This document shows positions 55,255 to 62,230 of a stretch of DNA of 64,000 bases, piece after piece. Under the pieces are notes generated by a model, which ran no database searches, had not been told where the DNA came from, and was given only the letters and a program-made list of their open reading frames with translations. The translations under genes were made by a program, and so were the position numbers. The first letter of the stretch is position 1, and every line of letters begins with the position of its first letter. This DNA comes from Roseibacillus persicicus (GTDB lineage: Bacteria; Verrucomicrobiota; Verrucomicrobiia; Verrucomicrobiales; Akkermansiaceae), in the NCBI RefSeq assembly GCF_014651675.1, contig NZ_BMXI01000002.1, positions 339,695-403,694 of the forward strand. Direction: 5' to 3'.

Positions 55255-55524
55255 ATGCCACGTTCACTGAAAAAAGGACCCTTCGTCGATCAGAAGCTTC
55301 TCGCGAAAATCGATGCTGCGGTTGAAAAGGGCGACAAAAAGCCCATCAAAACTTGGAGCCGTCGCTCGATGATCACGCCTGACTTCGTCGGCCTGACCTT
55401 CTCGGTTCACAATGGAAAGACCTTCCTCCCCGTCCTCGTCACCGAGAACATGGTTGGTCACAAATTGGGAGAATTCTCTCCCTCCAAGAACTTCAAGGCT
55501 CACGGTGGTGTGGGTAAGAAGTAA
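55255..55524 (+). CDS. rpsS: 30S ribosomal protein S19
   Basis: Product of 89 residues, standard. [16 protein letters not shown] and [18 protein letters not shown] are conserved. Followed by an unusual inserted gene instead of rplV. Confidence 0.98.
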
Positions 55525-55556: not shown

Positions 55557-56258
55557 ATGACTATCCGCCCGCAACTGCCAACCGTGCTCGCTACCCTTCT
55601 GGGGATGGCCACGTTGGCGAGTGGGCAGACCGGTGACTTGCGGGGAGAGCTCAATCGTCTGCGCCGCGAAAACGTCAACTTGAGCGAAAGCCTGGTTGCC
55701 GCCAACAAGCGCGCTGACGAAAGCACCGCCAAACTCAACGACATCAAGCTTCGCCTTGAGGCGATGGGTTCCGGTTTACTCGATGGGGGGGATGACCGCC
55801 TTGTCAAAGCCGTATCCGACCTCGAAGTGATGGCTCGCAAGCTTAAGGAGATGGAGGAAGCCGCTCTCGCGCTTTCCGCCAGCACCCAGAACTATCTTTC
55901 CACCGCCATCGCCGCCGACCCGGAAGCCCGGGTGGAGGTCGAGACCCGCCTCCGCGCTCTCGATACCGTCATCGGACTGCGCGAAGCACCCCGGAAGGAT
56001 CGCCAGATGGGCAATCTCCAGCAAGCCGAAGTCGTCAGTGTTGATAGCGAGTCCGGAGTGGTCGTAGTCAATGTTGGACAAAAAGAGTCTGCCGTAGTGG
56101 GGATGGCCTTCGAGGTCTACCGCAACGACAGCAAAGTGGCCGAGGCTCTCGTCGCGCAAACTCGCAACGATGTCAGTGCCCTGTTAGTAACGAATTTAGA
56201 AAACGAAGAGAATCCCGTTCGCAGAGGCGACCGGGTCTCATTTAAACGCAGCAATTAA
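55557..56258 (+). CDS. Exported coiled-coil protein inserted between rpsS and rplV
   Basis: Product of 233 residues. Signal peptide MTIRPQLPTVLATLLGMATL followed by an A-S-G cleavage region; then a coiled coil at about 28-115 (heptads in LRGELNRLRRENVNLSESLV). The last 80 residues (VVSVDSESGVVVVNVGQKES, GMAFEVYRNDSKVAEALV) form a small beta domain like those of FlgT/TraB-type envelope proteins, by pattern only. It is on the same strand, 32 bases after rpsS and 12 before rplV, so it is in the transcript. No family is recognised. Base composition and codon use look like its neighbours. Confidence 0.82.
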   Translation: MTIRPQLPTVLATLLGMATLASGQTGDLRGELNRLRRENVNLSESLVAANKRADESTAKLNDIKLRLEAMGSGLLDGGDDRLVKAVSDLEVMARKLKEMEEAALALSASTQNYLSTAIAADPEARVEVETRLRALDTVIGLREAPRKDRQMGNLQQAEVVSVDSESGVVVVNVGQKESAVVGMAFEVYRNDSKVAEALVAQTRNDVSALLVTNLENEENPVRRGDRVSFKRSN

Positions 56259-56270
56259 GGAAGAAGAATC

Positions 56271-56978
56271 ATGGAAGTCCGCGCGATACATAAATATGCG
56301 AGAATCTCAGCCAAAAAGGCACGGGATGTGGCTCGGGAAATTCAGGGAATGCCTGTTTCCGACGCTCTCGATACACTGACCTACACGCCCAAGAAGGCCG
56401 CTCTCCTCATCGGAAAGACCCTCAAGAGCGCTGTGGCCAATGCCGAGAACAATCACGAGATGGTCGCCGAGACCATGGTGGTCAAGGAAGCTCACGTGAC
56501 CGATGGACCGACTTCACGTCGCTTCAAGCCCCGTGCCCGTGGTTCTGCCGCTGCCATCCGCAAGCGCACCAGCCACATCTACATCACCCTCGCGGAAGCT
56601 CCCGAGGAAGAGGAAAAGCCCAAGTCTGCCAAAGCAGCGAAAAAGGCCGCTCCCAAGCAGCCAGCGAAAGCTGAAAAAGCTCCCGCGCCAGCCGCTGAGG
56701 AAGCCCCCGCTGCTGAAGCCAACAAGGAAGCTCTCGGATTCGTCTACGACGAAGCGCCCGAAGCTGCCGACGACCTCAAAAAGATTTCCGGCGTTGGTCC
56801 TGCACTCGAAGCGAAATTGCACGGGTTTGGTGTTTACACCTACCAGCAAATCGTCGATTGGACCCCCGAGAACATTGCCGCCTTCGATGACCTGCTTTCC
56901 TTCAAGGGACGCATCGAGCGTGACAATTGGCAGGAACAAGCCAAGACACTTCAATCTGAAAACGGAGGCGAGGCTTAA
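56271..56978 (+). CDS. rplV: 50S ribosomal protein L22 with C-terminal helix-hairpin-helix domain
   Basis: Product of 235 residues against about 110 in most bacteria. Residues 1-108 are L22 with the tunnel hairpin (TDGPTSRRFKPRARGSA). Residues 109-165 are an Ala/Pro/Lys/Glu-rich linker. Residues 168-227 are a helix-hairpin-helix domain (LKKISGVGPALEAKLHGFGV, then FKGRIERDNWQEQAK) of the COG3743-like type also seen fused to NuoE or L21 in other bacteria. L22 lines the exit tunnel; the added domain would lie at the ribosome surface. Confidence 0.95.
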   Translation: MEVRAIHKYARISAKKARDVAREIQGMPVSDALDTLTYTPKKAALLIGKTLKSAVANAENNHEMVAETMVVKEAHVTDGPTSRRFKPRARGSAAAIRKRTSHIYITLAEAPEEEEKPKSAKAAKKAAPKQPAKAEKAPAPAAEEAPAAEANKEALGFVYDEAPEAADDLKKISGVGPALEAKLHGFGVYTYQQIVDWTPENIAAFDDLLSFKGRIERDNWQEQAKTLQSENGGEA

Positions 56979-57026: not shown

Positions 57027-57806
57027 ATGGGACAGAAAGTCAATCCAGTGGGTTTCCGACTCGCCTTCAACCGCGACTGGCGCTCGAAGTGGTATGCTAA
57101 AGGTGATGATTACACCACCAAGCTCCACGAAGATCTCCAGGTGCGCAAATACATCAAGAACCGCCTCCAGTTCGCCGCCATTTCCAAGGTGGTGATCGAG
57201 CGGGCTTGGAACAGCGTGCGCGTCACGATCCACACCTCTCGCCCCGGTCTCGTGATCGGCAAGCGTGGTGCGGAAATCGAAACCATGACCAAGGACATCT
57301 CCAAGATTTGCAAGGGAGCCCAGGTCAAGATTGATATCCTCGAAATCCGCCAGCCGGAGCTCGATGCCCAGCTCGTTTGTGAGAACATCGCCGTTCAGCT
57401 TGAGCGTCGTATCAGCTTCCGCCGCGCCATGAAGCGCGCGGTTCAGACTGCAATGGACTTCGGTGCTGACGGCATCCGTGTTCGTTGTGGAGGTCGCCTC
57501 GGTGGAGCGGACATCGCCCGTGCCGAGCAATACCGTCAGGGCAAAGTCCCACTTCAAACTCTTCGTGTCCCTATCGACTATGGTTTCGCGGAAGCGAACA
57601 CCGTTTACGGAATCATCGGCGTCAAGTGCTGGTTGAACGTGAAGGAAGAGAAGCTCAAGGGCGGCCAAGGTGGCGGCCAGCGTCGTGGTGGCCCAGGTGG
57701 TCGTCGTGATGACCGTCGCGGAGGTGGTGATCGTCGCGGAGGCGGCGGAGACCGCCGCGGAGGCGGAGACAACCGCGGTGGCGGTGGGGGAGCACCCCGC
57801 GGCTAA
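57027..57806 (+). CDS. rpsC: 30S ribosomal protein S3 with C-terminal Arg/Gly-rich tail
   Basis: Product of 259 residues. Residues 1-210 are the usual S3 with KH domain ([12 protein letters not shown]) and VIGRRG-type loop, at the mRNA entry channel. Residues 211-259 are a low-complexity tail of Gly, Arg, Asp and Gln ([20 protein letters not shown] and similar). GAACGA precedes the start codon. Confidence 0.96.
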
Positions 57807-61507: not shown

Positions 61508-62230
61508 ATGTCAGAAGATAACGACAAGAAACCAACAGACGCCCCGACTCCAGAGCCAGCAGCTTCCGCCGATACGGCACCTGCGAAAACCGAGGCCGCC
61601 GCAGAAAAACCTGCTGCCCCTCGTGGAGATCGACGCGCCCCGGAACGTCGCGATGACAATCGTGGAGGTGGAAACCGCGGAGGCGGTGACCGTCGTGGAG
61701 GTGGCCCGGGAGGCCGCCGTGATGGAGGCCGTGGCCGCCGTGACGAAGAGGAAGATGATGGCATGGTCGAGAAGGTCGTCTTCATCAACCGATGCGCCAA
61801 GGTGGTGAAGGGTGGACGTCGCTTCAGTTTCTCCGCCCTCGTAGTCGCTGGTGACCTCAATGGTAAAGTTGGCTTCGGATTCGGTAAAGCGAACGAAGTG
61901 GCCGAGTGCATCAAGAAGGCGAGCGAAATCGCGAAGAGAAGCTTGGAGAAGATGGACCTCGATGGAGATTCCATTCCTCACGAAACTTATGCTGAGTTCG
62001 GCGGTGGCAAAGTTCTTCTTCGCCCCGCTTCACCCGGAACCGGCGTTATTGCTGGTGGTGGTGTCCGTGCCGTCTGCGAAGCAGTCGGGATTAAGGACGT
62101 CCTCGGTAAGTCCCTCGGTTCTAACAATCACGCCAACGTGGTGAAAGCCACTCTCAAGGCCCTCTCTGAACTTCGTAATCGCGACGAGATTTATGCTCTG
62201 CGCGGTAAGAAGAAGAGCAAGGCTATTTAA
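61508..62230 (+). CDS. rpsE: 30S ribosomal protein S5 with long N-terminal Arg/Gly-rich extension
   Basis: Product of 240 residues against about 167 in E. coli. Residues 1-37 are Ala/Pro/Glu-rich, 38-78 Arg/Gly-rich ([20 protein letters not shown]), 79-85 acidic (DEEEDDG). S5 core from about 86 ([20 protein letters not shown]) to the usual C-terminus ([16 protein letters not shown]). S5 and S3 both lie at the mRNA entry channel and both carry Arg/Gly tails here. The next gene is rplO; rpmD is missing. Confidence 0.96.

Follow-up and report, generated by a model that had tools for sequence, protein, structure and literature searches.

Why should the gene for an apparently exported protein lie between two ribosomal protein genes, and what does it do there? 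Few gene pairs in bacteria are as stable as rpsS-rplV. In the stretch of Roseibacillus persicicus DNA analysed here (64,000 nucleotides, hereafter the window), which contains a ribosomal cluster starting at rpsJ and presumably also including secY, the two genes are separated by an open reading frame that we call X:

55255 to 55524, + strand: rpsS, the upstream neighbour of X (PF00203, 1.2e-36)
55557 to 56258, + strand: gene X, from ATG to stop codon inclusive (open reading frame of 233 amino acids; homologues found)
56271 to 56978, + strand: rplV, the downstream neighbour of X (PF00237, 1.8e-35)

The identity of both neighbours is certain from their sequences. X begins 32 bp after the rpsS stop codon and ends 12 bp before the rplV ATG, all on the same strand, and the original prediction of a gene fitted tightly between the two was therefore correct. 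In the other loci that were read, X is followed by rplV at 0 to 117 bp, the rplV starts in this case being tblastn estimates. From such spacing we infer, as had been proposed, that the X transcript would be tied to ribosome synthesis. No promoter-like sites were found between 55200 and 57100 (a weakly informative result, the chance expectation being only 0.5); the same interval has two terminator-like sites, both on the - strand.

Several trivial explanations for the reading frame were considered and rejected. X is not a fusion to, or a misread extension of, rpsS or rplV, as the frames are separate in the loci read. Nor is it a pseudogene, given open frames and Ka/Ks values of 0.09 to 0.20 (see below), or an accidental insertion, given its conservation across the order and phylum samples. 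An RNA element in the operon was likewise discarded; there were two sub-threshold Rfam matches, neither of them within X.

We also observed, as separate matters, that some of the ribosomal proteins encoded here carry unusual ends. The rplV product has a C-terminal extension of ca. 125 amino acids, consisting of a low-complexity linker rich in A, K, P and E and a helix-hairpin-helix-like part; the extension matches HHH_5 (E = 0.00012, under the cut-off) and also the NCBIfam models for L21, S2, NuoE and PhaH, each under its cut-off. By eye, rpsC (57027-57806) encodes a C-terminal, and rpsE (61508-62230) an N-terminal, repeat tail rich in Gly, Arg and Asp.

Presence in one genome only, together with a disrupted frame, would have pointed to a recent accident, and this was excluded. 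Protein searches of 58 genomes of the order, among them that of the window, turned up an X homologue in 57, including every one of the 50 with a completeness of 90% or more and a contamination of 5% or less, and there is no stop codon within any of the 57 X matches. The DNA was read for all 57, and 56 have the arrangement rpsS-X-rplV. The remaining genome (G054) has X-rplV-rpsC; its contig runs only 0.6 kb further upstream of the X match, and no rpsS was found there. The original reference to Verrucomicrobiota was right: the one named relative that was found, Roseibacillus ishigakijimensis, encodes an X that is 80% identical in the best segment and is also flanked by rpsS and rplV. Six same-genus pairs gave Ka/Ks ratios of 0.09 to 0.20, at Ks values (0.9 to 2.0) that are high in most of them; judged by these ratios, X is under purifying selection.

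Homologue searches covered the phylum sample, in which the positions of rpsS and rplV were combined with matches to full-length and beta-domain profiles of X. At least 101 of the 194 phylum genomes have X immediately before rplV, and these span at least 31 of the 51 sampled families; the figure of 101 is a lower bound, as weaker matches beyond the matches listed may exist. With paralogues counted, the full-length profile matches at least 120, and the beta-domain profile at least 148, of the 194 genomes. Among the matches listed, rpsS is on the other side of X in 63 of the 101 rplV-linked genomes, on a different contig in 29 (which alone is no proof of a split operon), elsewhere on the same contig in 5, and not found in 4. 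The same matches show no X in 55 genomes with an rpsS-rplV gap of less than 250 bp, no X match in 3 genomes with a larger gap, and no X at rplV in a further 30, whose rpsS lies elsewhere, lies on another contig or was not found; rplV itself was not found in 5 of the 194. Nine class members have no beta-domain match at all among the matches listed, including two genomes of 0.9 Mb (G091 and G112) that are without X. X is therefore not required everywhere.

What, then, has kept X in its slot? One explanation, which we regard as possible but rather unlikely, is that X is a frozen passenger, which was inserted there in an early ancestor and has remained because breaking up the operon is costly; X would then be a useful envelope protein whose link to the ribosomal genes has no function. 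The closed rpsS-rplV gap in lineages without X agrees with such a history. Against it, the slot has been held over a long divergence, the mean identity of X being 0.30, versus 0.62 to 0.76 for L22, S3 and L2. The codon usage of X is consistent with passive residence. Its codon adaptation (0.616) falls between the median of a reference set of 18 ribosomal genes plus fusA (0.697; rplC left out) and that of the 28 other open reading frames of the window (0.581); X is below 17 of the 19 reference genes and above 68% of the 28 frames, i.e., only intermediate. With a value under the reference median, X is probably translated less than its neighbours.

Distances between X proteins co-vary with those between L22, S3 and L2 (Mantel r of 0.62, 0.68 and 0.69, respectively; p = 0.001; 54 order-level genomes), about as closely as the ribosomal proteins do with one another (L22-S3, r = 0.61; L2-S3, r = 0.69), which fits vertical descent. 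The same co-variation, and the position of X among ribosomal protein genes, might be taken to mean that X is a ribosome-associated or assembly factor, residing in the cytoplasm on the ribosome, with an N-terminal segment that is an anchor or no signal at all. However, co-variation is expected for any vertically inherited gene, and X is absent where lineages keep rpsS and rplV adjacent. The features of the protein itself, described below, make this role still harder to sustain, and we consider it most improbable.

Genomes in which the operon has come apart offer a view of which neighbour X follows. Seven genomes, none with more than five contigs, carry rpsS and rplV at separate places on a single contig, and the S10 operon is therefore split there. 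Five of them (G062, G137, G171, G175 and G204) have X next to rplV, at 34 to 135 bp as measured from profile edges, while G101 and G239 have no X at rplV. This mildly favours the idea that the slot matters, although for a frozen passenger it is of little consequence, as inertia neither favours nor forbids such an outcome. Relocation and loss of X count against the slot mattering. Several genomes of one family (f18) carry X away from rplV, and in all five relocated copies that were read (G227, G089, G113, G240 and G072) the best match was the rplV-linked X of the same family and not a paralogue; their hydrophobic starts were seen by eye. That relocated orthologues persist (five of five, all in this one family) is as expected for a passenger, and it also means that the X protein can act in trans, a purely cis role being unlikely. 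No neighbour is common to the five relocated copies, and so their surroundings give no functional clue. We note separately that in two of the five (L122:4725-5405 and L123:5070-5822) X directly follows an AcrB-like RND efflux gene, as judged by eye.

These copies bear directly on a cis-acting model, in which the translocon would attract ribosomes that translate X, and this translation would control the downstream rplV part of the operon. There is precedent for an export monitor of this kind in SecM, which lies upstream of secA. The signal-like N-terminus of X, its tight spacing to rplV (both here and, from estimated starts, elsewhere) and its presence next to rplV in five of seven split genomes are all in keeping with such a device. 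Nevertheless, the orthologues persist away from rplV, and the conserved part of X is a domain of ca. 80 residues whereas its extreme C-terminus is unconserved, unlike an arrest peptide; we think it improbable that X works in this way. A more speculative proposal is that X ties envelope export to the making of ribosomes: its signal sequence, while still nascent, would bring the polysome on the S10 transcript to Sec, and the finished protein would serve as an envelope scaffold. We give this very little credence. If it were true, translation of rplV and the later genes would take place at the membrane, or would wait for spare export capacity.

X is not the only carrier of its C-terminal domain. 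Free-standing relatives of the beta domain, one or two per genome, occur in many genomes of the phylum. The genome of the window is among them, with a tandem pair of such paralogues outside the window (G000:C9:141212-142295), and similar tandem pairs were seen at L112, L113, L114 and L115. Like X, these proteins combine a hydrophobic N-terminus and predicted helices (seen by eye) with this beta domain. Unlike X, they lay outside the ribosomal operon wherever their loci were read, and each paralogue tested had another paralogue as its best BLAST match.

The X protein itself was divided into three parts:

55557 to 55625, + strand: signal-peptide-like N-terminus, approximately residues 1-23, ending A-S-G before Q (hydropathy; cleavage site by eye)
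55629 to 55970, + strand: predicted helical region, residues 25-138 (low-confidence model and heptad analysis)
56013 to 56252, + strand: C-terminal beta domain with six predicted strands, the best conserved part (alignments and models)

A signal peptide had been claimed, and the N-terminus is indeed hydrophobic: its best 11-residue window, starting at residue 10 with one basic residue before it, has a mean hydropathy of 2.1. A strong hydrophobic segment was found within the first 60 residues of 88 of 91 homologues (53 of 54 at the order level and 35 of 37 at the phylum level), and a basic residue precedes the segment in 79 (46 order-level and 33 phylum-level). The 91 leave out L015 and L031, whose extracted frames were wrong, G188 and G091, which yielded no open reading frame, and G112, which has no X. 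The hydropathy test is only loosely specific, however, as a later segment also passes in 41 of the 91 (22 order-level and 19 phylum-level), as does one of five ribosomal controls. The claim stands as far as a hydrophobic start is concerned, and X is, by its sequence, likely to be exported. A hydrophobic N-terminus in 88 of 91 homologues is also not what one would look for in a cytoplasmic factor sitting on the ribosome.

The long coiled coil of the original prediction fared less well. Helices were modelled at residues 25-71, 78-120 and 122-138 (mean pLDDT 58, i.e., low confidence). The first has a strong heptad pattern, which none of 2,000 shuffles reached, whereas the pattern in residues 78-138 is not significant (shuffle fraction, 0.078). 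Among the order-level homologues, 37 of 54 show a significant heptad periodicity over residues 26-75. The helical part varies between homologues, while conservation is highest in the last ca. 80 residues. In 14 class members that were read, from families f7, f9, f13, f14, f16 and f17, X is a short form of 111 to 130 amino acids, made up of the hydrophobic N-terminus and the beta domain only, with the helices absent. The other forms read are mostly 164 to 402 amino acids long, the exceptions being G164 (129 amino acids) and G059 (501 amino acids by the longest frame). Since short forms exist without it, the coiled coil is not the core of X function.

The remaining structural claim, a small beta domain, was borne out by six C-terminal strands in each of two AlphaFold models, although the models are weak (mean pLDDT of 58 for the whole protein and 63 for the beta domain). 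At these values, fold searches serve as consistency checks only. The structural neighbours (Foldseek, VIA-align) were generic barrels, led by those of F1-ATPases, helicases and flavin enzymes. A putative LPHT-ring chain (8z5n) ranked 16th with a Z score of 7.2, amid many unrelated barrels of similar Z and from a low-confidence query model, and the absence of TsaP from the structural neighbours listed excludes nothing.

Sequence comparisons were scarcely more decisive as to family. X reaches no Pfam or NCBIfam cut-off. Against the PDB, the beta-domain profile matched TsaP at an E value of 0.0002 and MreC (PDB 9dvb) at 0.57; the best single TsaP stretch had an E value of 0.077, and with the full-length profile TsaP scored only 0.056, ranking behind coiled-coil chains. 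A phmmer search of the PDB with the beta domain of one member gave no related match. The Pfam family matched by the largest number of beta domains was FlgT_C (13 of the 61 in alignment A3, from which L104/G164 was left out, at an E value of 0.05 or below; best, 0.0022). The window's own beta domain is not among the FlgT_C matches listed; its weak matches are to unrelated families. In one or two of the 61 members each, four unrelated families gave better E values than FlgT_C. None of 30 genomes had a match to the FlgT_C model above its curated cut-off (27 bits). The MreC family (PF04085) is absent from the matches of X at an E value of 10 and matches 2 of the 61 beta domains (best E value, 0.018). 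LysM is absent from the Pfam matches of X and of the 41 members of alignment A1 (41 of 56 extracted frames).

TsaP and FlgT are both exported envelope proteins. The beta domain of X is weakly like TsaP, which is associated with the type IV pilus secretin (PDB 3jc8), and the C-terminal domain of FlgT (PF16538); X differs from them in having predicted helices and no LysM match, and in being encoded beside rplV and not beside pilus or flagellar genes. MreC has an N-terminal hydrophobic segment, a coiled coil and a periplasmic beta barrel part with two barrels, and its gene adjoins mreB. X likewise has an N-terminal hydrophobic segment, a predicted coiled coil and a predicted beta barrel, but a single barrel rather than two, with no significant sequence match to MreC and with rpsS and rplV, not mreB, as gene neighbours. 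The beta domain of X is likely a barrel of the general FlgT_C/TsaP/MreC kind, whereas its membership of either the FlgT_C/TsaP or the MreC group is unproven. Weak as it is, this likeness points to envelope proteins, again at odds with a factor that acts on the ribosome.

The explanation that we favour, and to which we would assign an even chance, is that X is a periplasmic scaffold or anchor made together with the ribosomal genes, so that its supply is scaled to growth. X would be an old envelope protein of the Verrucomicrobiota, produced from an S10-type ribosomal transcript. Sec would export it, or its N-terminus would anchor it, and it would act in the periplasm, where the coiled coil, in those forms that have one, would hold it in oligomers and the C-terminal beta barrel would dock on an envelope partner. 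The rpsS-rplV slot would serve to scale the supply of X with ribosome synthesis, i.e., with growth rate. A growth-linked envelope role, as was originally suggested, is thus plausible, although relocation in one family, the lineages without X and a codon adaptation under the ribosomal median all argue against a strict link. On the whole, the initial observation was confirmed and its interpretation supported in part: X is firmly established as a phylum-level gene with an unusual location, and its product is likely an exported scaffold or anchor.

We found no description of the X gene, by title or opening of the abstract, in the open-licence literature, and nothing on it among the Akkermansia papers listed there or in the excerpted part of PMC4960237. 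X may be of use as a marker of Verrucomicrobia; according to the excerpted part of PMC3444138, no marker specific to this group was known, and a 2-amino-acid indel was proposed. The gene for an apparently exported protein has been kept between rpsS and rplV through much of the phylum. Targeted mutagenesis and a transposon map of essential genes are available for Verrucomicrobium spinosum (PMC12283558, from the part of the article available), and in this species X makes the matching of envelope growth to ribosome synthesis directly testable. More broadly, envelope production may be tied to ribosome production in many Verrucomicrobia.
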